Source of the DNA: a virus | Length of the DNA stretch: 64,000 nucleotides | Direction: 5' to 3' (one strand) | Virus record (IMG/VR): IMGVR_UViG_3300020202_000003 | Location: 1-64,000 of that record | In this document: positions 5,721 to 52,764 of the stretch, piece after piece | Position numbering within the stretch: position 1 is the stretch's first letter | Layout: every line of letters begins with the position of its first letter | Made by a program: the position numbers and the translations under genes | The notes under the pieces: model-generated | Seen by the model: the letters and a program-made list of their open reading frames with translations, nothing else | Told to the model about the DNA's origin: nothing | The model's database searches: none

Positions 5721-6677
5721 CTAGGACGACGTGAAATAGACGCTGCGTGCCTCGCCATCGTTGGCGCTATCGCCCCACACGTTGGCAAAGCCCAGGACCC
5801 CGAACCAGGCCACAGCCCGCTGACGGCCGAAGTCCGCAGGAATGCCGGCCAACAGCTCCGGCGCTTCCACCTCGGCCAAGGCCAGGATGTCATCGCCGAA
5901 GAAGATCGCTTCGCCGACGGCGCTGCCCGTGCCGCGTTCCGTCAACACGTTGTCGTGATCGACTTCGATGAAGCGGACCTTCTCGATCTCCCCGATTTCG
6001 GCGTTGTGGAACACTTCGCCGGGCCGGAGATACTGCCGCCAGGAATGAAACTCGGGATCGTCCTTGACGCCGCGACAGGCTTTCGTGGACGCCAAGCACA
6101 TATAGGCCTGGCCCTGATACGGATCGACGTGGAGCGTCTTCCGCATGTAGTCGCGGATCAACTTCACGTGCGCGACCGTCATGTTGTTCGTCCCGGTCAC
6201 AGAAGTCGTGCCGGCATCGGTCGTGAACGTTCCGCCCACGGCGCTCGTGGGGCCGAAGCGGATCTGACAGGACTTCATGGCCGTCCCGGCCACGGTGTCC
6301 AACGTCAGCTTCATCTGCTTCTTGAGCGATTTCTGAATCGCGTTTTCCGGGTCGAACTTATTGAGCAACTGCACGAGCCGCGTGTAGCCCACGCCGCGGC
6401 CAAACTCGGTGACGGTGATCGATCGCGTGGACATGGCCATCTGATCGATCGGAATCTTGCCGGTTTGACTCAGGACCGCCGACGTCGGCTCCGCGATGTT
6501 GCGGATGCGCTGAATCGTCACGGACTCGCCTTGATGGGCCCCAAAGCCCGGTTCTGGCCGCGCAAACTGCAGCACCAGCGTTTCCGCGATGCTGGCGTAG
6601 CGCAGCTCCGAGCTCAGCGCATGATTGCGCGAGACCCCTGAGGTAATGCTGCCACTCCACTCAAAATTCCCTGCCAT
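5721..6677 (-). CDS. Major capsid protein (N4-gp56-like)
   Basis: 318 residues, cytoplasmic, building the icosahedral shell. The segment from about residue 55 (VTIQRIRNIAEPTS) through TGKIPIDQMAM, SITVTEFGRGVGYTR and LVQLLNKFDPEN is characteristic of the N4-gp56 family of major capsid proteins, and the length is close to the family norm. Later segments such as DDPEFHSWRQY and GEIEKVRFIEVD also match the pattern of that family as I know it. It lies between the scaffold-like gene and head decoration genes, the usual podovirus order. Confidence 0.85.
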   Translation of the reverse strand: MAGNFEWSGSITSGVSRNHALSSELRYASIAETLVLQFARPEPGFGAHQGESVTIQRIRNIAEPTSAVLSQTGKIPIDQMAMSTRSITVTEFGRGVGYTRLVQLLNKFDPENAIQKSLKKQMKLTLDTVAGTAMKSCQIRFGPTSAVGGTFTTDAGTTSVTGTNNMTVAHVKLIRDYMRKTLHVDPYQGQAYMCLASTKACRGVKDDPEFHSWRQYLRPGEVFHNAEIGEIEKVRFIEVDHDNVLTERGTGSAVGEAIFFGDDILALAEVEAPELLAGIPADFGRQRAVAWFGVLGFANVWGDSANDGEARSVYFTSS

Positions 6678-7959: not shown

Positions 7960-8256
7960 TTAGGACCAGGGTTGGGTATCGCCCACCGCTTCCCGCACTT
8001 TCTTGTGCGCGGCTCTGCGAATGGTCGATTCGATAGACCCCAGATCACCAGCCATGTCGGTTATCGCCCTCAAGACACCCAAGGCCTGATAGCGAATGGC
8101 GAGGGCTTCCACTTCGGTTTTGTCCGGATTCATGAGTTCACTCATGAGGCCGATTACGGTTCGCTCAAACTGCCGGACAACGAGCACCTTCGTGCCCTCA
8201 TCGAGCATGGCCGACTGCAACTGGAGCGCTTCGCGTTTTTCTTCGACGGAGTTCAT
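7960..8256 (-). CDS. Small helical head-region protein
   Basis: 98 residues, all helical in appearance (VEEKREALQLQSAMLDEGTKVLVV, ALAIRYQALGVLRAITD). Its ATG overlaps the portal stop by four bases (ATGA), so it is coupled to the portal. It could be an accessory head assembly factor; no family is recognised. Confidence 0.6.
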   Translation of the reverse strand: MNSVEEKREALQLQSAMLDEGTKVLVVRQFERTVIGLMSELMNPDKTEVEALAIRYQALGVLRAITDMAGDLGSIESTIRRAAHKKVREAVGDTQPWS

Positions 8257-10154
8257 AGGCCTCCTGCTTGGGGCTGGCTCGGGGCCGCGCCCGGTTGTGG
8301 TGCTGGCTTCTGAGCCGGTGCGGCCGTCGGCTGCCCGGTCGGGGTTGCGGTGCCCGGATTGTTCTGTCCGCCCAGCAACAGACTATTGAGCAGCATTTCC
8401 TGCTGTTGCTGTTGCTGCATGAGCTGCATTTCGTCTTCGCTCCGGATCGTTTCACTGGCGTCCAGCGCGTCCGCCATCTTCCGGATCAACACGTCGTCCT
8501 TCGAATACGGCGCGAAGCGTGGGCTCTCGGTGAGCTTCACCATGTTGATCAGGCGATCGATCAGCTCGGACTTCTGGAACATGATCGACACGCCGCGGAT
8601 TTCGATATCGGTCTCCTGTTTCAACGCTTCGATGCGATCTTCCGGAGACATCATCGCGATGAAGCCCAACAGCCGTTCGTGCTTGCGCCCCAAGACTTGG
8701 ATGTAGCTGGGGGAATCCCACGGGTCCCAGTACGTCGTCAGAATGTCCTGAAACATTTCGATGCACTGCTCGCCGCCGTACTCCACGTCCCGGCCAATGC
8801 CTTCGAACACGCCCATGGCTTGCTGCGTTTTGATCTGCACTTCGCCTTTGGTGATGTCCTTCCGCTCGCCGGTTTCGCCCTTGAGCAGTTCGGTGACGAA
8901 GACCCCGTTTTGGTACAGGTTCCCGGTCAAGGCCATGAGCTGTTCGACGATCGGGAGAAAGTCCTTGTCGGTGGGAATCAGCCGGTAGGCGTCCCGCATG
9001 CCGAACTTCATGGGCTTGGTGCAGCCGGGAAAGAGTTCCTTGTCGGCAGGATTCAGGAGCTTCCCTTCATCGACTTCGTAGGCACCGTTCAGCACGAACG
9101 ACAGCTTGTCCGCCGTCATCGAGAGCAGGTTGCAGCGGAATTTCCACATCTTGAGCATGCCCTCGTTGAGCGAGTAGCCGTGGAAGTTCCGCAGGTGTGG
9201 GATCGCGGCGAATTGGTGGATCGGCCATTTGATCCGTGGAAACTTGACGGGCTTCGGCTTGGCAATGACGGTGCGGTTGGCCACGGTGAAGCGGCACTTC
9301 GGAAAGCGCATCTCGCCGTTGTGATCGAGCACCCCGCCCCAAAACTCTCGGACGAAGACTTGCGGCCGGAACCGGTTGGAGTAATCGACCAAGCCCCGCT
9401 GCCGGCGTTCTTTCTGCCGGGTCCATGTGCCTTCATCGCCCTTGTCGCGGAGACAATTCCTGACGTTCTGGTAGTAGCCCTTCTCTTCGCCATCGAGCAG
9501 GGTGTAGTAATCCACCCAATCTTGATGCACCAAAAAGAGGCCGGATTGCGGCTCTCGGGACATGGCGTCGACGTCGCGGCGAATCTTCCAGGGTTCGATT
9601 TTGATGGTTTTCAGACCCTCGATCCCGTTCTCGTCGACGCTCCATATCCCTTTGAGCGCCATACTCGTGCCGACCGAAAAGGCCATTTCGGTCAGGTCCG
9701 GAAAGGTGTGCGTGAGCTTGACGCGCTTGGCCCACCAGCGGAGCGCGTCCTGCCAGAAGTCAACCTTCGCCATCACCATCGGGTCCTCTTCGAGTTCCGT
9801 GGTGACGTTGATCCAGTCGGGCCGATCGACGATCGCCTTGCGGACGAGCATCTTGGCTTGAATGGCGGTCTGGAAGGGTTCGTTCGTGGTGATCTTGGCT
9901 TGCCAGTCTTCCTTGAGTTGCAGCTCGCGCATCTTGCCTTCGTGCGCGTCCCACAGTTGTTCCTCAAGCTTGATGCGATCTTTGTAGACGGATTCGGTGT
10001 GGCGGACGCACTCCTCGACATATTCGACGAGGTGGCCATCGGGGATGTCGTCGGTCTGGTCCGCAAAGAGTTCTTCCAACTCTTCGTCGGGGAGATCCTG
10101 CAGCTCTTCGATGGCAGCGGCGAGCGCGGCGTCGGTTTGTCCAAACGCAGCCAT
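8253..10154 (-). CDS. Portal protein (P22-like head-to-tail connector)
   Basis: 633 residues, forming the dodecameric DNA channel at one capsid vertex. It shows the layout of podovirus portals: an acidic helical start, a long core (NEPFQTAIQAKMLVRKAIVDRPDW, FWGGVLDHNGEMRF, NEGMLKMWKFRCNLLSMTADK), and a helical end with a Q-rich stretch (about residues 585-595) and a disordered Pro/Ala/Gln tail (TPTGQPTAAPAQKPAPQPG). It follows the terminator at 10443-10497 and heads the scaffold and capsid block. The length fits P22-type portals, which carry long C-terminal barrels. Confidence 0.8.
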   Translation of the reverse strand: MAAFGQTDAALAAAIEELQDLPDEELEELFADQTDDIPDGHLVEYVEECVRHTESVYKDRIKLEEQLWDAHEGKMRELQLKEDWQAKITTNEPFQTAIQAKMLVRKAIVDRPDWINVTTELEEDPMVMAKVDFWQDALRWWAKRVKLTHTFPDLTEMAFSVGTSMALKGIWSVDENGIEGLKTIKIEPWKIRRDVDAMSREPQSGLFLVHQDWVDYYTLLDGEEKGYYQNVRNCLRDKGDEGTWTRQKERRQRGLVDYSNRFRPQVFVREFWGGVLDHNGEMRFPKCRFTVANRTVIAKPKPVKFPRIKWPIHQFAAIPHLRNFHGYSLNEGMLKMWKFRCNLLSMTADKLSFVLNGAYEVDEGKLLNPADKELFPGCTKPMKFGMRDAYRLIPTDKDFLPIVEQLMALTGNLYQNGVFVTELLKGETGERKDITKGEVQIKTQQAMGVFEGIGRDVEYGGEQCIEMFQDILTTYWDPWDSPSYIQVLGRKHERLLGFIAMMSPEDRIEALKQETDIEIRGVSIMFQKSELIDRLINMVKLTESPRFAPYSKDDVLIRKMADALDASETIRSEDEMQLMQQQQQQEMLLNSLLLGGQNNPGTATPTGQPTAAPAQKPAPQPGAAPSQPQAGGL

Positions 10155-10163
10155 TAGTGCTCC

Positions 10164-41238: not shown

Positions 41239-44200
41239 TCAAAAAGCCAGCTCGGGCGTATAGTCGTGGTCTGGGGTGAGCCAGCCTTGATCTTCAAGAC
41301 GATGCTCGAACCGGTGCCGACGTTCGACGGGGAGCACTTGCATGATCACATCACGGTAGTATTGCTCGGCCTTCTTGAGCGTCTGCCGTTCTTTGGTGTC
41401 CAGCTGCGCGACAATCGCCGCCCGTTCGGCTTTGTTCACTCCGGCCAGGGGAGCCTTCGCCCGCAACGATTGCTCCATGTCGTGCCACATCTTGGCGCGG
41501 CTGAACTTCTTCCCGTGCTTCTCGCGTTCCAGCCGTTCATATTCCGCTGCCCAGGTGGCTTGCGCGTTGGCGTCTTTGTCGGCCATGGCCCGGCCCCAGT
41601 TCGCCAGCGCCTCGCCGCGGGGAGAGCGCCAGAAGACCGCCGAGGAATCCTTGCCCATGCGTTCCAGATATTTCCGCTCAATGCCGTTCCACGTGGAATA
41701 GGCGGCCCCTTTGGGGTCCGATCGCTGCACAAGCAGGCCCGTCAGATCCTCGACCCCATAGAGCGGCTTCCCGGGTTTCCCGCGTAAGGCGCCCAGTTCC
41801 GGTCCCAGCGTGACTTGATGGCCGAGGTAGTCCACGCGATCGTTGATCGGACGCGGGTTGAACACATCGGGATAGGTACTCTCGCGGACAGCCATCTCAA
41901 GCGGCATTTTCACAGCCGGCGTGAGTCCTTGCCAGATCTTATTGACCGGTGCCTTGACCGTGTTCTTGATCGCCTCGCCGATGGTCATCCGGTCGTGCAT
42001 GATATCGCCGACCAGGCCCGGGAAGGCATCCAGCCCGAACCAGGAGAGAAGATCGCCGAGCGCCCCAACGCCTGACAAGTATTGAATCTTGCCGTTGTCG
42101 TCCCGGCCAAAGAGAATATGGGGGCGGTTGGCCACGGTCGGGTTCGCCAATCGCAGTTCTTCCTCGTCATCCCCGAACATGAGATAGTTCCAGGCTTGCA
42201 GCATCCCCCAAAAGGCTGACAAGCGAATCATGAACCCGGCTGCTTGCACCGTCGACACCACCGCGCCCCGTCGCAAGGCACCCGCGTTTCCTCCATCGAG
42301 GGCGTTCTTGACCAGCCGGAAGTAGCGCGTACTGTTCACTTCCATCCAGCTATAGAACGGAATCCAGAAATTCCGAATGGTCTGGCCAGCCACACTCACC
42401 CGGTCATACGCCCCCAGCAATTCATTCGACAGCTTGAACGCCCGATCGCGGATGTCCGGTAAGGCCATTACGGTTTCCGGTCGTGAAGCGCCGAAGTTCT
42501 TGGGCCGTCCGTTGTTCGCCTGCATCTGCTTCAGGTAATCGAGATAGGCGGCGTACCGCATCATGGCTTCGCGATAGTCGGTCGCGAGCCGGGCCGTCTT
42601 CCAATAGGCGTTCCAGGTCTTGGCCGGAATCGACAGCACCCCACCCTTACTCGATTGATCCAGCGTCTTTTGAAACGCCTTGAGGTCGTTGAGGTCGCCG
42701 AGTTCTTGGAACTGTAACGTCGTCCCGTACCCGCCCCGTTCCGCCCATTCCTTCGCTTCGCCGGTCAGCTGCGCCTCTTTGAAGATCACCGGGATCAGTT
42801 CTTTCGCGGCTTGCGGGAGTCGCTTGAACGCCGAGGGATTGCCGACGAAGAGGGCGTCGGCGTCACCCGTCAGGTTGCGGACGTTGTAGCGAATCACCTT
42901 TCTCGGCGCGATGAGCATGAGCTGTTTCCAATGCCCTAAGAGCTGCCGGTTCATTTCCACGAACCAGCTCGGCGCGGGCTTCGCCAGCCCGTCGAGCGTG
43001 GCCGCGGCTTCCTTCGGGATCACATATTCCTCGCGGGCGCCTCCTTGGGCCAGCACCTTGCGCAACTTCTCGATCGGAAAGCCCGCCTCTTCCAGCATCC
43101 CTTCTTGGAGCGCCTTCATCAGGTTGGCCGGGATGGAGTCCGCCATGTAGAAGACATTCCCCTCGCGCGGCTGCCAGATTTCATGCGTGTCTGGGACGAG
43201 CCGATCCCACGTCATGAACTTGGGACCGAGGAGGTCCTTCGTGTAGGCCTTCCGTTCACTGATCGCCTTCAGGACGCCGCGCGCGGAGAGATTTCCCGGA
43301 CTCTCTAGGTCGTCGGCAATCTCGGCAATCTGTTCCATGGACAGCTCGTCGTCTTTGTCGAGCTCGAGCGCCTTCTTGAGCATCGCCATGTGCATGCCGA
43401 TCCGCTTCTTGAATTCCTTCATCTGGATGTCGATGAGGGCGCCGGCTTCTTCGTTCTCGGCAATCAGATCGGCCAAGGCTTGCCGGTTGAGACTCTTCGC
43501 CTCCTGCTCGAGGCTCTTCCGGATATTGTGGTGCCGATCGACGTTCTTGATCACCTTGGCGAGCTGGGTGTCATAGACCATCTGCGCCATGACTTCGAAT
43601 TCCGCTTGCACGTAGTTCGCATTGATATCGTAGGTGGAGCCTTTGCGCGACTTCAGAAACCCGCGCCCGGTCGGCGTCCGGACCTTCGAGCCTGTCCCCG
43701 AGACGGCGCGTTGCTTCGCATGCTCCAACACTTGATGCCGGAAGTAGTCTTGCTTGGTCAGCTTCTTCGACACATCGAAGCCGATCGCCTCCATCGACGC
43801 TTTGTAATTCGCCTTGAGCCGGTCCCAGAGTTGTTGACGCTTGGTCCAGGCCTCTTGCACCTTCGGGTCTTGCGCGATCAGTTCATCCAATCGCGCGAGG
43901 TCGGTGTCGACTTTCTCCGGCGTGTAGCCAAAGGGGAGCGCATGCCCTTGCTCGGCTTCGCGTTGGAGGTCCGCCAGGAGCGCCTTCCATTCCAGCTGAT
44001 CGTATTGCTTGCGGGAGAGCGGTTTGATGATGTCCGCCAGGTCGCGCTGGATCTTGTCGGCGGCAATACCCTTGTACTTGTTGAGGCGTAGCAGATCGTT
44101 CCGCAATACCGAGAATTCCGCCGTATCGGGCAGTTCTTCAAACTCCCGCGACACCAGTTTCCAGACCCGCGCCGTGTGGTTCTTCAGTCGCGCATAGAGG

Positions 44201-47200
44201 GATTCCGGTCTGATGCCCTTCTTGGCTTCCCGTACTCGCTGCTCAATTTCCTGATCCGCCGACTGAAAGCCAATCAAGTCTTCCTGGGCGCGTTGCTGCC
44301 GGTAGCGTGCGGCTTCGCCGGCATAGGTCGGTTTGGTCGACACCGGCACCGATCCGCGTTCCTCTTTCAGAATCTCGGCCCCACGACGGATCACCTCGAT
44401 GATCGGCTTGAACTTGAGGATCTTCTCCAAGACCCGTTCCCCGAGTGTCTTGTCGGTCGGAATGAAATAGCGTGTCGCGTATTGCACTCGTTCCGCAAAG
44501 GCCCCGTACTGTTTCAATTGCTCGGCCGACCGGTACACGTCGGACCCTTCAATCTCAATGCGTGGTTCGTTGTTCAACCGGACGCGCTTGATCTTCCACT
44601 CATTCGCAAGCTGTAAGGTCGCGCCGTCGTCCAGCACCGCGTCAAACGATTCTGCCGGCGTGAGTTTCGGGACGGTCTTCGACCCCTTGCCGAGCTTCAC
44701 CTTAAAGCTCGCCGCCTGCTCTTCCCGCAACATCCGGCCTAAGAGCCGTTCCCCATCGGTGGTTTGCAGCCGGCGGATCTTGGCGAAGTCTTTGGGCAGT
44801 CGATCCCACACACTGAGAATGGAGCCGGTCGCCATGTAAAACTTTTCCGACGTGTGCGACGGTTCGCTTTCAATCTGTTTCTCCCAGGCCTTTCGCCCCT
44901 CGATCTTCTCGAGGTCGGTATAGAGCCGTTTTAGGTCGGCCTTCTCCACGTACTGATACCGATCGGCGTTCGGCGCTTGGAGCATCGTGACATGAACGAC
45001 TTCCCCAGAATCTTTGGTGCGCGTATGATCGTACAGCACCGCCCAGATCTTCCCGCTATTGGTGTTTCGCACGTACCGCTTAAAGTCTTGGTGCTTCTCG
45101 ATCGACTCGGCCGGCGTGAACCGGACACTATGCTTCGCTTCCAGATGCACGAGTTCGACCTTGGCTTTCGTGGTCGGATCTTCGTGAATCACGCCCCGAT
45201 CCAGCACGGTAATGCCGCCGTCGGCGCGGTAGGTTTCCATCCCGACATCGAGCGTGCCTTGCGCTTGGGCGTACTCCACGGCCCGCTCCAGCCGGTTCGC
45301 AAAGTGGTCAAAGAGCCGGTTCTGAAACGCTAGATCCACCGACAAGAGCCGGTTCAGGAATTGCGGGACGGACGGAATCCGCTCCTCGAGCAAGTTCCCA
45401 TCCTTATCGATCAGGTTGTTCAGCCCGAGCTTGCTGGTGATGTCCTTAAACGCCATCCCCTCCACTTGCCCGCGGAACAGATCCCGGAAGAAGGATTTCA
45501 CGCTGCTCACGGCATAGCCGTTTTCCAGGTTGTCCTTTGCGTCGATCAGGCCCGAGCTGCCCGCCTGCCGTTGGCCCTTCGTCAATGCCCCGAGCTGGTT
45601 CAAGCGCCGGGCAATCGTCGAGATAAACCGCTTGTGGCCTTTGATATCCGTCGTCGACAACACCCATTCCGGCGCACTCGCTTGATTGGTACGATGGGAT
45701 CGGCCTAGCCCCTGCACCGCTTTGTCCGCCCGCCAGCCGGGTTGAATGAGATAATGTACGCGCTGCTGTTGATTCTTCTTGGTCTTGTCGGCGTGATAGC
45801 TTTCCCCCGTGCCGCCCTTGTCGGAGAAGACGAGAATCCGTTTCTTTCCCTCCATGTAGGCGGCCACATCCTCGCGCACCGCGGCCGGACTGCGCTTCTG
45901 CCGCTTCACGGTTTCGGTGCCGTCGTCGTCGTTCTTGAGCCGCACGACGCGCTCTGACCGGCCCGTGACTTCCGCCACCAGATCCGGACCGAAGGTATTG
46001 AGAATAATTTCTAACGGCCCTTCCGGAACCCGCATGGCCCCGAGCTTCTCTAACAGCTCATCGCGCATCTTCACCGCTTCGGCGTTCAGGACCGGCACAC
46101 CTTTGGAGTCCGTCACGATGCGGGAGCGGACGTTCTTATTCTCGTCGGTGTACTCCTCGAACTGCGCCACGGGAAACGACTTCTCGATGTACTGCATGAG
46201 GTTTTGCCGGGGCGTCATGTCGAGGCTTTCGAGGTCGGCGCCCGACTGATCGGCGGATTGGAGTTGCCGATCCATGATCGCCTCGTTCGTATTGACGAGC
46301 TGCACGAGGAGCGATTTCCCGTTTTCAAGCTGCTGCTTCATGTCCTCGATCACCGAGGGCATTTGCATGGACGTAAGGATCTGATTGAAGAACCGTTGAT
46401 TCGCGCCCCAGAATTTGCCATACGCGGCGGACTTCGCCATCGCGTTCTTGGTCTTCATCTGGCCGGTCTTCCCGGCCCCCATCACGCCGGTTTCTTCCAG
46501 CGCCTTTTCCAGATTGGACAAGACGAGCTGCCAGCCCTTCGCCATTTCGTCATAGATCTCGCGTTGCACCGGTGTGAGCTTGTGCTCCACGCGCCGACAG
46601 CGCACGTCGGAATAGTCGAGGCTCCGGGAGATATAGGACCCCATCCCCTTCATGTTCTGCGCGACGATCTCCATCGCGCCCAAGCCGCTTGCTTCGATCG
46701 CTTGAATGAAGTCGGTCTTCGTCGGGAACGGCGTCCCTTCGCCCCACAACCCCAGCCGATCGGCATAGGCCAGCCCATCGACGCGCGTGGCGGCCGTCGC
46801 CGAGGCATAGACAATCCGCGCCTTCGGGAGGCGCTGCTGCAGGGTGACGGACGCCAACGCCTTCGCCGCGGGTTTGCTCTCCCCGCGTTCCGATTCTTGC
46901 TCCAGGCTGTTCTGCATGTTGTGCGCTTCATCGAAGACGATCAGGCCATCGAAGTCTTTGCCGAGCCAGTCAATGACTTGATCCAAGCGGGTCTTAACCG
47001 ACACCCCGATCTTCTCGCCTTTGGCCTGTTTCGCTTTGAGCTGCCCCCCTGCCAGGACGTCCAGTCCGCTTGCCATCGTCGTGTAGGTCGTGTAGAGAAT
47101 GCCCTGTGGCCGATCGATCGGTTGATCCCGTTTGAATTTATCGAGGCCCACGATATCGGCGGCTTTCCCGCCGAGGTCCTGCCAGTCACGGACCGCCGAG

Positions 47201-50200
47201 TTCACGAGGTTTTGTGTCTCGCTGATCCAGACTGTTTTCTTGCGGCCCTGCTGCCAGTTGTCGAGAATGATCGCGGCAATCTGCCGGCCCTTCCCCACGC
47301 CCGGCCCATCGCCCAGGAAGAACCCGCGCCGTTCCCCATTGGGTAACGTACTTGTGTGCGCTTGCCCGGCATACACGACGGATTCCAGTTGGGCGTCAGA
47401 GAGCTTGCCGTGGTCAATGACCGACTTCGGCAGGTGCGGTTTGTAGGTGGCGTCCGGTGGATCGCTGGAGGAGAGCGCGGCACTTTCGACGAGCTTGCCC
47501 GGATGCCGCTTGGCTCCGGCAATCTTCACTTTGCGCGGCGTGTAGGATTCGTAGACGGAATCGGTCAGCGCGTCGGTGTTCGATTTCTTCTCAGCCGTGA
47601 CCGTTTCGACGGCTAACGGTTGGGATACTTCGTCGGCGGGTAATCCAGCGTCTCGTCCACCGTCATGCGCAGATCCAGTGCGTTCAGCACCACGCGCGCG
47701 GCCTGCTTCGCGGACATCGCTTTGCGGAGTTGCCGCTTGGTCAGGAGTGGACTCTGCTTGTCGTCCGGATTGTCGCGGAGATACGTCAGCGCCTTTTCTG
47801 GATCCCACGTCAACAGGTTCTCCAGGGACGCCTGCACGGTCGCCCGCCACTCGTCGCTCGGGAGTTTGAGCTTGCCGTGGTCCAGGCCCCACTGCGCCAA
47901 CTGGATCAGATAGAGGCTGCTCGGATCGGGTACCTGTTGCTCGAGCCGCAGGTACTTCTTCGCGAGCTGGTTCAGCGGATCGTAATTCGTGTGGAGCTCT
48001 TCCGGACTCAACGCGGGTTGGGCTGTGGCGAGCATCGCGCACCTCCTTGAGGAGCGGCACGGCGTCCAGCACATCGGAGACATTGGCAATGACCGGTGCC
48101 TTGCCGTCTGGCTCTATCTTATCAAAGATTATAATCTGATTATCGTACGTCGTCCCATATTTTTTATAGCCCTCTCCCGACAATCCCACCCGCGCCCGAT
48201 ACGCCCAGGATTTCGCCATCTTCGAGAGCCAGTCTTCCAACACTTTCGGGTCCGCCCACAGCTTCCATTTGCCGATCAAGGCGACCAAGCGGCCTCCCGG
48301 CTGCAAGCGTTTGAAGGCCTGCTCCAAATGCGGAATGACGTTGGCCGTACTGCGCGAGCCCTGCATCCGGCCCGCCGTCGAGGAGAAGGGCGGATTCATG
48401 ATGACGACGGTAGGTTGAATCTCTTGCCGTAAGATATTGTGGAGCTGTTCGGCGTTCTCCTCGTAGACACTCCCGATCTTCATGCTCCGCAAGAGTTCCG
48501 CACGACGAGGGCTGAATTCATTCATTACGACATAGGCCCCGGCATTCTTCGCAAACACGGCCAGTCCGCCAAGGCCTGCCGAGGGTTCGAGCACGACATC
48601 GGACGGAGAAAGATTCGCCGCCCAATTCATCGCGTAAGCCAGATCTGGGGGCGTGGAGAATTGCTGAAATTCCTCTTGTTCTTCCGTCCGTCGATTCTGC
48701 TGAGAGGGAACGCGATCGAGCAATCTTCGGATATCGGCGATGGTCGGCTGTGGTTTATACCGAGGATCAAATGATGATCCGTACTCGAGCATGTACTGGT
48801 TGATCCCCAGTTCCATCGCATCGTGCACATCCTTCGGTGTGTACTTGCCTTGCGCCTGGGTCCCGCCGAAATCGTAATCCCCTCGCTTCGTGAGGTCTGC
48901 CGTACTGAAGGCCAGCACACCCGGCGCCGTCTTCTTGTTCAACTGATCGGTCACAAACTTCGCGAGCGCGAGGGCGCCGTCTGTCGTCTCACGAACCGGT
49001 GCCTTCGGTTCAGGTGTCGCGGCAATCGCCTCCGGAGTGGCAGGAAGTTCCGTCTGCTCCGCATCCTTCTCTTGTGCCGCCTTCGAGAACAACGGCGCTT
49101 CTTCGGGTTGCGCTTCCCGGCCAATGATAGGACGTGAGCCGATCGTCTCCGGTGGGATCTCGATTGACATCTGTGAGGCTTTGGGCGTATCCTTAGACTT
49201 CTGTGCCTGACCGCCTGATTGAGGCGCCGTCAACACCAAATCCGGAGTTGGCGGCGTTTCTTTTTGTGCTGGCCTCTCAATCCAACTCGGCCATTCCCCG
49301 CGCGCAATCGCGTCCGCATCCTCTCCCCACGGTGTCTTGTTGAATTCCCGGTCTCGCAGTAACGCTTCCTTGACTCGCTCAACGGCTGCTCCAACATCCA
49401 CGCCATGATTCTTGATGATCTTCTGAATGGCCGTCTCGATCTGCTGGCGCTTGAGGGGACGCGGCCCGGTGGTCAGTTCGGTGTACCAGTCCGGTGCGGC
49501 CGACTGCAGGCTGGTGACCTCCGGTGTGCCGCCTTGGCCTGGCACATCGTAGTCGAGAATCTTCCGCCGACCTGTCTCCTTCCCGGCAATCTCCAAGTCG
49601 GCTTGCGCCTTCTCGGCCCGGAGCTGCATCTCCATGTTTTGCTCGATCGGCAATTCAGAACGTGGCTTTTCAATGAGCGGGTTCGTGACCTGATCCGGTG
49701 TGGGGTCTGCCTCCCGGGGCGCGTTGTAAGCCTTGATGGGGTTCTGTGTCGCCTTTGGATCTGAAGCCCATCGCTTGAAGGCCTCAAGCGATAAGATCCG
49801 CATGCCATCATAGCCCTTCCAATCGTCGGCGTAGTTTTCGCTATAAAGCTGTTTTGCCTCACTGCTCGATGAAGCCCCAAGAATCACCTTATGCTCATCA
49901 AAGCGTCCGGTCTTGGGGTCCATCTGATCAATGACATACACGCTGCCTGAATAGTCTTCCGGCGTCCCTGGCTTTACGAACACATCGATATGATCCTTAT
50001 CCTTCCCCTTGGTCCCGCGAATGTACCCGTAGTGCGACTGCATTTCGACGGACCACGGCTTCCCCTTCTTGTCGACGCCGGTGCGCACGGAGCCTTGCGG
50101 GTTTTCGATGGAGATATCGAGTCCGGCAATGCGCACATGCCCCTTCGTGTAGTTCCCGGCTTTCTTCTGTGCCTCGGTCGGTTCTGGCAGTGGATTGGTC

Positions 50201-52764
50201 GGGGAGGTCGCGGCTTGGTGCGCGGAGGACTCTACGACAGATTCGGGCGTGGGGGATGAAGTCTTCTGCTTGATGAACGATCGCGGGTCAGGCGCAGTGG
50301 CAGTTTCTCCCTTCCCCTTCGCCCGGCCAGCTTCGATCACAGCATTCCGGTAATCTTGGGCTAACGAGCCGACGTTGTAATCGTGCGGCAGATTCAGAAC
50401 ATGCCGGATCCGGCTCACCGCGTGCTCGACGTCAAACTCGCGATCGCCCTTCGCCGCCTTCTGTAAGCGGCTGGTAAAGTCAAACAGTTCGGCATGGAGG
50501 GGATCGGCAAATTCAATCCGGCGCTGCCCATGCTTCCCGAGGAAGATTGATCGGCTTCGGTCGGGCGTGGCCTTCTTAGGTTCAGATAGCTCCGGCGTCG
50601 GCGCGACTTCGGCGCGACTTGGCGCAACTTCCGGTTTTTCGACTGAAGGTGAGGCGAGTTCAGGAGTGGGCGTGCGCTCGGGCATCCACTCAGAAACAAT
50701 GCTGCGTATCAAAGATTGCCGTGCATGACCTTTCAACCCAGAGTCCAACGCACGTTGGATGTCCTCACCAAAAGCCCGCATGTCATCCACGCTCTTGATC
50801 CCGCCAGCGTCATAGACGAGCTTGGCCGATTGCAGATACGCCGATGGCTTCCCGCCTTCAGTGGTGTCACCTTTTTGCACCTTGTCCCACACGGCTTGGT
50901 AATAGTTGTCAGCCATGGCCTTTCCTGCGCCTCCGAGGAGTTGACCCATTTCCTCGGGCGTATTGGCTAAAGTGGTCGCTTCCGGTGTTGCGGCCAAAGA
51001 AGGCGGTGGCTCAATGGGAACAGGTCTCGTCGGAATCGTCGGCGTCTGCACGATGTTCGGCGTGCGGCCTTCCGGCCCGGTCGGCACCTGTACCGGCGTC
51101 ATCGGGATCGCCTGCGTCTGCGTAATCGTAGGAGCCAACGGGACCGCTTCCGGTGTTGCGGGGATGGGTGGTGCCACAACAGCGGGTTGAGCTGGCGCCG
51201 TTGGCTGTCCCGCAACCGGCATGGACTTCTTCACGAGGAACGGCTGCCGCTGCGTAATGTTCAGGTTGTCGGGAATGCCAGCGACGAGATCCGGCGTCGC
51301 GGGCTGTTGAGGCGGCTGTGAGGGAGCCGGTGGTTCGCCTGCAAACGGCGATTCACTCGCCGGCGCCTCTTTCGCCTGCTGCTGCTTCCGGACCTTCCGA
51401 CCCTGCAGAATGCCGGTGACCAATCCCGTCACCGCGCCAACAACCCCGCCGGCTTCTGCCGAAATGCCCGCGTTCTCAAAGAGGCTGCGATGTTCGTCGT
51501 AGAGCTGTTGCGCAATCGCGTTGCTGCCGACCTGCTGACTCCATTCCTGAATCGCTTCCTGTGCGGCTGTCACGCCGCCTTCCTTCAGGACCTTCATGAT
51601 GCCGCCGCCCGTCGCAGCATTGAACCGCTTGAAGAGCGCGGCGACCGGCAATCCCTCAGTGGCGCCCACGGCACTGCCGAAGAGGAAGGCTTTCCGCTTC
51701 GTGGCGTCGTCAGCTTTGAACTGTGCGGCTTCTTCGTACTGATCGGCGCCTTGCACACCCGCCCCGAGCACGGCGGCCGCGGTACCCGGCGCTTTCACGG
51801 CGGCCCCCGCGACTCCACCAAAGAGAAACCCGGTCATGCTGCCAAAGGCACGCGGGAGCACGTTGAGCACAAAATCTTTCTGTCGCGCCGGATCGGTCGG
51901 AAAGGTTTTCTTGGCGAGCTGTTCAATCGCGTTCCCGAGCTTATAGGTGAAGCGATCTTCGACCGCCTTGGGATCTTTGAGCATGTCCGGCAAGAGCGCA
52001 TCGAGCTCTTTCGACGCAATGGCGACCGACTTCAACGCGCCGGCGGGAATATCGGCCAGGCCTTGGAAATAGTTGTTCTTCGCTTCATGGAAGGCCTGGG
52101 CAAAACTAAGCGGCTTCGGTGGAGCGGCTGGGACCGGTGGCACGGCGGCGTCTGGTGTGAGCCGGCTGGCTGTCACTCGTACCTCTGGGACTTCAAGTAC
52201 CGGCTCATCATCCGGCGCGTCGATCAGATGTCCGCTGCTCTTCAACTGCCGCTCAATGAGGTCCTTTTCTTCCGGCGTCGAGAGGGAGTTGAATTGATCC
52301 GGCGACACAATCTCGCGGTTCTTGGTGTCGATGATTTCGCCGTCTTCCACCTGGAAGCGGGCGCCCGGCACGGTCAACGGCTTCGTTGGCTTCATGACCG
52401 TGGGTCGCGGCGGCACCACGGATTCAGGGGTATAACCAGGCTGGGGGACGTCGGGTTTGACGTCGGGACTGAGGAACGACGGGACACGTCCGATCGTCCG
52501 ATCAAAGAAGCGTTCGACCTTCGGATAGGGATGGAGTTCCGCTTCTTTCGCACGGGCCTGCTTCACCTGATCGGTCAAGGCCAGCCGGTCGGTCTTAAGC
52601 TTCGAAAACTCCTGCCGACCGGATTTCAGAAAGGCGTCGGGATTATCGCCCGGCCACTTCCCGACTTCTCCCTCGGCCATGACTTGCTCGCGCTCTTCCG
52701 TCCGGACTTCATACGGCGCGAGCTTCGAGCGAAAGGCTTCTAAGCGTTCTTCCAGTGTCGCCAT
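41239..52764 (-). CDS. Giant polyvalent protein: pyrophosphatase-like, DNA methyltransferase and helicase domains
   Basis: 3841 residues. Approximate layout: 1-300 helical and Pro-rich; 305-460 two Gly/Ala-rich hydrophobic stretches (GFLFGGVAGAAV, GGVVGAVTGLVTGI); 870-1015 a domain like the polyvalent-protein InPase family (KGHVRIAGLDISIEN, DHIDVF); 1320-1560 N6-type methyltransferase (VLEPSAGLGG near 1391, NPPFS near 1456); 1730-2450 strawberry-notch SF2 helicase (DGPGVGKGRQ near 1820, DEAH near 1945, SAT near 1988, GRSHRTNQ near 2355); the rest is helical with hydrophobic segments near 3500. Family knowledge: phage P1 DarB pairs the same two enzymes, is packaged and protects DNA from restriction. 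Ejection with the genome is inferred. Confidence 0.8.
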   Translation of the reverse strand: MATLEERLEAFRSKLAPYEVRTEEREQVMAEGEVGKWPGDNPDAFLKSGRQEFSKLKTDRLALTDQVKQARAKEAELHPYPKVERFFDRTIGRVPSFLSPDVKPDVPQPGYTPESVVPPRPTVMKPTKPLTVPGARFQVEDGEIIDTKNREIVSPDQFNSLSTPEEKDLIERQLKSSGHLIDAPDDEPVLEVPEVRVTASRLTPDAAVPPVPAAPPKPLSFAQAFHEAKNNYFQGLADIPAGALKSVAIASKELDALLPDMLKDPKAVEDRFTYKLGNAIEQLAKKTFPTDPARQKDFVLNVLPRAFGSMTGFLFGGVAGAAVKAPGTAAAVLGAGVQGADQYEEAAQFKADDATKRKAFLFGSAVGATEGLPVAALFKRFNAATGGGIMKVLKEGGVTAAQEAIQEWSQQVGSNAIAQQLYDEHRSLFENAGISAEAGGVVGAVTGLVTGILQGRKVRKQQQAKEAPASESPFAGEPPAPSQPPQQPATPDLVAGIPDNLNITQRQPFLVKKSMPVAGQPTAPAQPAVVAPPIPATPEAVPLAPTITQTQAIPMTPVQVPTGPEGRTPNIVQTPTIPTRPVPIEPPPSLAATPEATTLANTPEEMGQLLGGAGKAMADNYYQAVWDKVQKGDTTEGGKPSAYLQSAKLVYDAGGIKSVDDMRAFGEDIQRALDSGLKGHARQSLIRSIVSEWMPERTPTPELASPSVEKPEVAPSRAEVAPTPELSEPKKATPDRSRSIFLGKHGQRRIEFADPLHAELFDFTSRLQKAAKGDREFDVEHAVSRIRHVLNLPHDYNVGSLAQDYRNAVIEAGRAKGKGETATAPDPRSFIKQKTSSPTPESVVESSAHQAATSPTNPLPEPTEAQKKAGNYTKGHVRIAGLDISIENPQGSVRTGVDKKGKPWSVEMQSHYGYIRGTKGKDKDHIDVFVKPGTPEDYSGSVYVIDQMDPKTGRFDEHKVILGASSSSEAKQLYSENYADDWKGYDGMRILSLEAFKRWASDPKATQNPIKAYNAPREADPTPDQVTNPLIEKPRSELPIEQNMEMQLRAEKAQADLEIAGKETGRRKILDYDVPGQGGTPEVTSLQSAAPDWYTELTTGPRPLKRQQIETAIQKIIKNHGVDVGAAVERVKEALLRDREFNKTPWGEDADAIARGEWPSWIERPAQKETPPTPDLVLTAPQSGGQAQKSKDTPKASQMSIEIPPETIGSRPIIGREAQPEEAPLFSKAAQEKDAEQTELPATPEAIAATPEPKAPVRETTDGALALAKFVTDQLNKKTAPGVLAFSTADLTKRGDYDFGGTQAQGKYTPKDVHDAMELGINQYMLEYGSSFDPRYKPQPTIADIRRLLDRVPSQQNRRTEEQEEFQQFSTPPDLAYAMNWAANLSPSDVVLEPSAGLGGLAVFAKNAGAYVVMNEFSPRRAELLRSMKIGSVYEENAEQLHNILRQEIQPTVVIMNPPFSSTAGRMQGSRSTANVIPHLEQAFKRLQPGGRLVALIGKWKLWADPKVLEDWLSKMAKSWAYRARVGLSGEGYKKYGTTYDNQIIIFDKIEPDGKAPVIANVSDVLDAVPLLKEVRDARHSPTRVESGRAPHELRSAEPAREEVPAARATGTRSEQPLSDPVGAVGPGPRQAQTPERRVAGDRAGVPGEPVDVGSRKGADVSPRQSGRQAESTPDQAATPQSDVREAGRARGAERTGSAHDGGRDAGLPADEVSQPLAVETVTAEKKSNTDALTDSVYESYTPRKVKIAGAKRHPGKLVESAALSSSDPPDATYKPHLPKSVIDHGKLSDAQLESVVYAGQAHTSTLPNGERRGFFLGDGPGVGKGRQIAAIILDNWQQGRKKTVWISETQNLVNSAVRDWQDLGGKAADIVGLDKFKRDQPIDRPQGILYTTYTTMASGLDVLAGGQLKAKQAKGEKIGVSVKTRLDQVIDWLGKDFDGLIVFDEAHNMQNSLEQESERGESKPAAKALASVTLQQRLPKARIVYASATAATRVDGLAYADRLGLWGEGTPFPTKTDFIQAIEASGLGAMEIVAQNMKGMGSYISRSLDYSDVRCRRVEHKLTPVQREIYDEMAKGWQLVLSNLEKALEETGVMGAGKTGQMKTKNAMAKSAAYGKFWGANQRFFNQILTSMQMPSVIEDMKQQLENGKSLLVQLVNTNEAIMDRQLQSADQSGADLESLDMTPRQNLMQYIEKSFPVAQFEEYTDENKNVRSRIVTDSKGVPVLNAEAVKMRDELLEKLGAMRVPEGPLEIILNTFGPDLVAEVTGRSERVVRLKNDDDGTETVKRQKRSPAAVREDVAAYMEGKKRILVFSDKGGTGESYHADKTKKNQQQRVHYLIQPGWRADKAVQGLGRSHRTNQASAPEWVLSTTDIKGHKRFISTIARRLNQLGALTKGQRQAGSSGLIDAKDNLENGYAVSSVKSFFRDLFRGQVEGMAFKDITSKLGLNNLIDKDGNLLEERIPSVPQFLNRLLSVDLAFQNRLFDHFANRLERAVEYAQAQGTLDVGMETYRADGGITVLDRGVIHEDPTTKAKVELVHLEAKHSVRFTPAESIEKHQDFKRYVRNTNSGKIWAVLYDHTRTKDSGEVVHVTMLQAPNADRYQYVEKADLKRLYTDLEKIEGRKAWEKQIESEPSHTSEKFYMATGSILSVWDRLPKDFAKIRRLQTTDGERLLGRMLREEQAASFKVKLGKGSKTVPKLTPAESFDAVLDDGATLQLANEWKIKRVRLNNEPRIEIEGSDVYRSAEQLKQYGAFAERVQYATRYFIPTDKTLGERVLEKILKFKPIIEVIRRGAEILKEERGSVPVSTKPTYAGEAARYRQQRAQEDLIGFQSADQEIEQRVREAKKGIRPESLYARLKNHTARVWKLVSREFEELPDTAEFSVLRNDLLRLNKYKGIAADKIQRDLADIIKPLSRKQYDQLEWKALLADLQREAEQGHALPFGYTPEKVDTDLARLDELIAQDPKVQEAWTKRQQLWDRLKANYKASMEAIGFDVSKKLTKQDYFRHQVLEHAKQRAVSGTGSKVRTPTGRGFLKSRKGSTYDINANYVQAEFEVMAQMVYDTQLAKVIKNVDRHHNIRKSLEQEAKSLNRQALADLIAENEEAGALIDIQMKEFKKRIGMHMAMLKKALELDKDDELSMEQIAEIADDLESPGNLSARGVLKAISERKAYTKDLLGPKFMTWDRLVPDTHEIWQPREGNVFYMADSIPANLMKALQEGMLEEAGFPIEKLRKVLAQGGAREEYVIPKEAAATLDGLAKPAPSWFVEMNRQLLGHWKQLMLIAPRKVIRYNVRNLTGDADALFVGNPSAFKRLPQAAKELIPVIFKEAQLTGEAKEWAERGGYGTTLQFQELGDLNDLKAFQKTLDQSSKGGVLSIPAKTWNAYWKTARLATDYREAMMRYAAYLDYLKQMQANNGRPKNFGASRPETVMALPDIRDRAFKLSNELLGAYDRVSVAGQTIRNFWIPFYSWMEVNSTRYFRLVKNALDGGNAGALRRGAVVSTVQAAGFMIRLSAFWGMLQAWNYLMFGDDEEELRLANPTVANRPHILFGRDDNGKIQYLSGVGALGDLLSWFGLDAFPGLVGDIMHDRMTIGEAIKNTVKAPVNKIWQGLTPAVKMPLEMAVRESTYPDVFNPRPINDRVDYLGHQVTLGPELGALRGKPGKPLYGVEDLTGLLVQRSDPKGAAYSTWNGIERKYLERMGKDSSAVFWRSPRGEALANWGRAMADKDANAQATWAAEYERLEREKHGKKFSRAKMWHDMEQSLRAKAPLAGVNKAERAAIVAQLDTKERQTLKKAEQYYRDVIMQVLPVERRHRFEHRLEDQGWLTPDHDYTPELAF
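47613..48035 (-). CDS. Nested gene inside the giant gene, 140 aa
   Basis: A second frame of the same strand, starting MLATAQPALSPEELHTNYDP. The sequence AAGGAGGT, a full Shine-Dalgarno, sits five bases before its ATG. The product looks like a normal globular helical protein (NQLAKKYLRLEQQVPDPSSL, YLIQLAQWGLDHG, LTKRQLRKAMSAKQAARVVL). Over the same bases the giant frame encodes low-complexity Arg/Gly/Ala/Pro/Ser linker between methyltransferase and helicase, as expected when the nested frame is the constrained one. No family recognised; a frameshift product joined to the methyltransferase is an alternative. Confidence 0.65.
   Translation of the reverse strand: MLATAQPALSPEELHTNYDPLNQLAKKYLRLEQQVPDPSSLYLIQLAQWGLDHGKLKLPSDEWRATVQASLENLLTWDPEKALTYLRDNPDDKQSPLLTKRQLRKAMSAKQAARVVLNALDLRMTVDETLDYPPTKYPNR

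Follow-up and report, generated by a model that had tools for sequence, protein, structure and literature searches.

A conserved small protein appears to be encoded out of frame inside the methylase-helicase gene of phages and conjugative plasmids

Introduction

Can one stretch of a large phage gene specify, in a second reading frame, a protein of its own? The question arises from a gene for a giant protein in the IMG/VR virus record IMGVR_UViG_3300020202_000003, of which positions 1 to 64,000 (here called the window, the whole stretch of DNA that was analyzed) were examined. The complete record comprises 64,264 bases, and its gene products include RecT, a DNA methyltransferase, terminase and virion proteins. 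Outside the small-genome viruses, long genes that overlap on the same strand and are firmly supported by evolutionary evidence are, to our knowledge, rare.

Polyvalent proteins carrying a DNA methylase-helicase dyad, either P1 DarB-like or in a Strawberry-notch variant, were described by Iyer et al. 2017 (PMC5512222). They are predicted to enter the recipient cell with the DNA, DarB being a virion protein, and have been assigned to conflict systems (PMC5512222). That report nowhere mentions overlapping genes, frameshifts or internal starts. The original prediction, made from the letters of the window alone, suggested that a second product is translated from inside such a gene, between the methyltransferase and the helicase. 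We report here the analysis that followed up this proposal.

Results

A second open frame overlies the methyltransferase-helicase linker

The giant gene (41239..52764, minus strand) specifies 3841 aa with Pfam matches to InPase, AAA_34 and Helicase_C_4, and a PHROGs search also matched it to DarB-like and DNA methyltransferase entries. All of its domains are given here by minus strand coordinates. The InPase domain (giant residues 864-1000; 49765..50175; PF18823, E 9e-54) is followed by an adenine-methyltransferase domain with an NPPF motif (residues 1356-1551; 48112..48699; phrog_9133 and phrog_6263), which is kept in relatives, and then by the Strawberry-notch N-terminal NTPase domain, AAA_34 (residues 1753-2073; 46546..47508; PF13872, E 2e-112) and the Strawberry-notch C-terminal helicase domain (residues 2251-2510; 45235..46014; PF13871, E 6e-82). 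The giant is thus a polyvalent protein with a methylase-helicase dyad, in which a methyltransferase is fused to a SWI2/SNF2-type helicase and to disparate domains. By analogy with the polyvalent-protein literature (PMC5512222), it is predicted to be packaged. Elsewhere in the window, at 8253-10157, two long open frames (633 and 629 aa) lie on opposite strands in almost full overlap; the minus-strand frame matches a head-tail adaptor family and the plus-strand frame is probably a side effect of codon bias.

The nested gene (47613..48035, minus strand) lies between the adenine methyltransferase and the Strawberry-notch helicase, and by open-frame reading consists of 140 codons plus TAG in the +1 frame relative to the giant (start ATG 48035..48033, stop TAG 47615..47613). 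It matches the profile of its family with E 3e-31, the window's own copy being a member of that profile. Five nucleotides before the ATG is the Shine-Dalgarno (SD) sequence AAGGAGGT (48041..48048, minus strand), which in the giant frame falls in the codons of KEV (conserved form LLEGIRN). Both the open frame and its SD sequence were borne out exactly where they had been described, and the giant frame stays open across the whole nested gene. The further claim, that a natural-looking protein overlies a linker-like stretch of the giant, agrees with composition. G+C by codon position in the giant frame is.82/.66/.39 over the nested stretch and about.62/.42/.75 elsewhere in the giant, while the nested frame reads.66/.39/.82 over the same stretch, so that the pattern flips. 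The residues VILMFWY make up 10% of the stretch in the giant frame versus 31% in the nested frame. This codon bias would favour the nested frame as the ancestral one, although bias would come to follow the more constrained frame in any case.

The arrangement is shared by loci collected without reference to the nested frame

Relatives were gathered by the helicase alone and not by the nested protein, and presence of the nested frame was therefore not selected for. A helicase search first yielded 36 viral loci, and a helicase alignment search then added 80 loci from bacterial and archaeal genomes and 80 from viral contigs. Four loci of a short-linker clade with chance open frames (L093, L110, L113 and L114) were left out by hand, and L085, for which the start was wrongly picked, was excluded from counts but still appears on the tree among the carriers.

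The same arrangement was found in about 117 distinct loci of phages, prophages or bacterial genomes and conjugative plasmids, from several phyla. In carriers the linker is roughly 330-470 nt long, with the giant and +1 frames open and the +2 frame mostly closed. Longer linkers (720-909 nt) in L064, L147, L162, L165 and L168 consist of the nested frame plus several hundred more bases before the helicase. Carriers include Methylococcales, Chromatiaceae, Nitrosomonas, Clostridia, Sporomusa, Desulfobacterota, Magnetococcales, Treponema and one Bacteroidota MAG, and among the plasmids MEALZ_p of Methylotuvimicrobium alcaliphilum 20Z, pTHIMO01 (MPF_T, MOBP) and one from Methylomonas on which tra genes adjoin the locus. 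On MEALZ_p the giant is MEALZ_RS20390 and the nested gene occupies 8627-8968 of locus L182; in Sporomusa ovata DSM 2662 the carrier is the prophage-like locus L042.

Because, of the two frames, the nested one makes the better protein here, it might be thought a part of the giant, separated from it artificially by two sequencing or assembly indels, a doubt that the original prediction had itself raised. About 117 relatives, each assembled independently and among them isolate genomes and complete plasmids, nevertheless show the same two open frames in identical arrangement, and the openness of the giant frame is under selection (see below). The relatives thus rule out an artefact of this kind. 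The apparent break in L045 is masked sequence. L041 does look broken, in its giant frame upstream of the helicase Walker A region; this region (about 6000-6250) reads ...FFIGDGCVAAGTRIYNPV... and looks like an intein in the P-loop.

In the annotated plasmid records examined the giant alone is listed, with no separate coding gene over the nested stretch, a hint, from an incomplete plasmid gene table, that the nested gene is unannotated there. In Thioflavicoccus mobilis pTHIMO01 (L185, 3195-7574) a nested homolog is present and the gene table has only the C-terminal part of the helicase; this giant may be broken or left unannotated.

Both frames are under selection

Codons were redrawn synonymously in 115 loci, following each locus's own codon usage. 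With the nested protein held fixed, 701 stops were expected in the giant frame and none was seen; with the giant linker held fixed, 203 were expected in the nested frame and again none was seen. As a control, windows matched in length and taken elsewhere in the giants had an open +1 frame at a rate of 3.2% and an open +2 frame at 9.4%, so that 3.6 of 115 loci would have an open +1 window by chance. The absence of stops, together with these controls, argues that the giant is read through and that the nested frame is read too.

Substitutions point the same way. In 18 independent close pairs, changes synonymous in the nested frame and replacing in the giant numbered 489 versus 301 expected, and those replacing in the nested frame and synonymous in the giant 201 versus 320 expected. 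Pairwise identity of the nested proteins was 24% versus 15% for shuffled copies, and that of the giant linkers 20% versus 20%, so that the giant linker keeps its composition only. Distances in the nested protein covary with those in the helicase (r.55; 0/999 permutations).

The window is G+C-rich and contains many spurious ORFs, including other +1 ORFs in the giant, as might be expected if the nested frame were a chance opening in coding DNA of this composition. The frame is however conserved in loci with G+C contents of 36-70%, the matched controls are open in so few cases (in the window's own giant, 0 matched-length +1 windows), and the protein-level constraint and SD statistics likewise speak against chance, to which we give almost no weight. 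With selection on both frames, purifying selection on the nested protein and start signals of its own, the frame has, as judged from sequence, the properties of an overlapping (overprinted) gene, and almost certainly is a translated one.

The start signal is maintained by silent codon choice in the giant

The nested start lies directly behind the methyltransferase motif LLEGIRN, at offset 0 in 99 of 129 loci. It is an ATG in 125 of 129, a count with some circularity, since the start closest to the anchor was taken and ATG was preferred. Of the 115 nested starts, 93% are preceded by an SD match of at least 4 nt, compared with 24% of 6422 other ATGs; for matches of at least 5 nt the figures are 70% and 6%. 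Where the giant's codon over the ATG specifies Asn, Asp, His or Tyr, its third base is T in 112/112 loci (47.6 expected), again partly circular through the ATG preference. Free of this circularity are the Glu codon that forms the SD sequence, which is GAG in 62/77 loci (37 expected), and the Leu codon before it, which ends in G in 59/71 (33 expected). These patterns indicate that the ATG and SD sequence are maintained by silent codon choice in the giant, and that the start signal is selected as RNA.

A start signal of this kind bears on whether the nested sequence is instead expressed by a programmed +1 frameshift near the methyltransferase end, giving a methyltransferase-nested fusion, as the original prediction had also entertained. 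Such shifts can be promoted by SD-like sequences, and the nested frame is indeed +1. The ATG position is however nearly invariant, the SD spacing suits initiation, and a stop in the nested frame lies no more than 3 codons before the ATG in 23 loci and no more than 20 before it in 102/115, so that there is little room for a fusion. We regard frameshifting as very unlikely. Conservation of frame, start, SD sequence and protein supports instead the claim of a second, separately initiated product from inside the giant gene. We also considered whether the helicase is re-initiated on its own once the nested frame has ended, and rejected this; a giant-frame start codon is nearby in only 19/115 loci.

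The nested protein is a helical family confined to this linker

Members of the nested family are about 110-140 aa long (median 123 aa) and mostly acidic (median pI 4.8), although the window's copy is near neutral (pI 6.7). Their consensus is N-x-x-P-L-N-x-x-A ... L-x-x-L-Q-L-x-x-W-x-L-E-x-G ... P-x-x-A-x-x-x-L ... A-A-x-x-L-L-x-x-L. An AlphaFold2 model from 85 members is all-helical with seven helices (pLDDT 90.3, pTM 0.82). No family match was obtained in Pfam, PHROGs, NCBIfam or PADLOC, where matches were to single members and at chance level, and a fold search of PDB and BFVD gave no match (best E 1.3 and 0.43). The predicted fold is like nothing known and therefore offers no functional clue. 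A profile search of PDB returned a sigma-70 region (E 0.039 over 28 residues), which was not taken as homology.

No copy was found outside the linker in the 27 viral records or 20 bacterial genomes searched, and each giant has one; the one genome with two nested copies holds two giant loci, L066 and L077. Searched by tblastn against 'phages', the nested protein gave no match, and in a first viral scan with it four loci matched by chance, via the seed RLEQQVPDP only.

Clostridial linkers in nine loci (L049, L072, L075, L078, L080, L137, L145, L153 and L019) keep the nested start, SD sequence and frame. The proteins of this subgroup are acidic and helical and have no relation to the main family detectable by profile comparison, and a fold model of the divergent clostridial set, also helical, is too weak for use (pLDDT 59.5). 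Profile comparison does connect an intermediate clostridial set with the main family, and some members of that set are also rows of the main alignment. The subgroup would reflect either fast divergence or replacement.

Some relatives lack the nested gene

Relatives without the frame, which the original prediction had counted against itself, do exist, but only as one short-linker clade and three further viral contigs (L033, L034 and L166). The clade, with alphaproteobacterial, Nostoc and Azospirillum members, has a short Pro/Ala-rich linker and the same methylase-helicase; the nested gene is therefore dispensable in some settings and not essential for the enzyme everywhere. On the helicase tree, the root of which is not fixed, the lacking clade lies inside the carriers and presence and absence require at least two changes, consistent with an old gene lost twice. 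In Serratia phage Parlo, a +1 ORF after the methyltransferase of DarB is unrelated to the nested family and has no SD sequence. A short-linker Strawberry-notch methylase-helicase gene on Azospirillum argentinense plasmid p7 (L183, 1-8048) has type I-E cas genes on one side and a phosphorothioated-DNA-binding restriction endonuclease on the other, a setting that resembles defence rather than transfer.

Discussion

We propose that the giant mRNA carries a second start site, an SD sequence with an ATG, in the +1 frame of the stretch that codes for the methyltransferase-helicase linker. Ribosomes translating the giant would read this stretch as a flexible, low-complexity linker, and those initiating at the internal SD sequence would make a separate, mostly acidic, seven-helix protein. 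Produced beside the giant, this product might serve it as a cognate small subunit or chaperone, and perhaps be delivered with it to protect the incoming DNA. Taken as a whole, a separately initiated nested protein with a probable subunit or chaperone role is the explanation that we favour, with reasonable though incomplete confidence. Its functional part is less secure: that the nested protein is a partner or chaperone of the giant has somewhat better than an even chance, judged from location. The partner role is suggested because the protein is found only in the linker, with one copy to each giant, whether the carrier is a phage or a conjugative plasmid. Besides a chaperone, the original prediction named an inhibitor that would silence the methyltransferase or helicase until injection, and either role may apply. 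The most specific form of the proposal, a new-fold small subunit or dedicated chaperone of an injected methylase-helicase, encoded out of frame in the enzyme's gene, we hold to be evenly poised.

The nested protein might instead act on the host, as a small protein for anti-restriction or host takeover whose expression simply accompanies that of the giant. The acidity of the family recalls DNA mimics and many inhibitors, and the conflict-system assignment of polyvalent proteins (PMC5512222) would accord with such a role. So would the small proteins of huge phages whose ORFs, as an excerpt of PMC8297831 has it, are conserved, overlap large composite ATPase genes and are suspected or suggested to be inhibitors of host enzymes. 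Host-directed genes however usually wander between loci, and this family occurs in one linker only; its hosts come from several phyla, and the near-neutral pI of the window's copy fits poorly. A subunit or chaperone agrees better than a host-directed effector with the strict location, the vertical inheritance with the helicase and the lack of free copies, and we consider a host-acting protein unlikely, although it is the one alternative of substance.

Neither the giant's family nor out-of-frame nested genes as a kind are new. The giant has the InPase, methyltransferase and Strawberry-notch helicase of the polyvalent methylase-helicase proteins, and like them occurs in phages and conjugative plasmids (PMC5512222), from which our system differs in that the nested product is a separate protein. 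The closest functional analogy for the nested protein may be Cas11, which is translated internally from cas8 or cas10, joins the large complex and is important for its activity (PMC11899642). Both would be small proteins made by internal initiation within the gene for a large nucleic-acid enzyme subunit. Cas11, however, is in frame and a C-terminal piece of the large subunit, whereas the nested gene is +1 and its sequence unrelated, so that it is not an in-frame internal product of the Cas11 type.

Precedents for the out-of-frame arrangement differ in other respects. The same-strand Rz1 gene of phage lambda is nested out of frame within another. The two products, the Rz/Rz1 spanins, work together according to an excerpt of PMC5295617; they are lysis membrane proteins, with no relation in sequence or context to the nested gene. 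A phage DNA methylase gene contains out of frame a second protein, an HNH endonuclease (PMC12613952), which is reported in one phage, whereas the nested gene represents a new helical family across phyla. The small ORFs of huge phages are adjacent genes that overlap the ATPase gene, and the excerpt of PMC8297831 describes none fully inside it and out of frame. In the open-access literature, the scope of our search, we found no report of the nested family, its fold or its place, and PMC5512222 alone combines the terms 'strawberry notch', 'methyltransferase' and 'bacteriophage'.

With 24% mean pairwise identity, several host phyla and two kinds of mobile element, the nested gene appears to be old. 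The overlap also permits a clean test, since a change that is silent in the giant, such as AAT to AAC in the Asn codon, abolishes the nested ATG. The nested protein is a candidate for a missing partner of the methylase-helicase polyvalent proteins, apparently overlooked so far. If this is true, an enzyme and its partner would be made from one stretch of mRNA and sent in with the phage or plasmid DNA.
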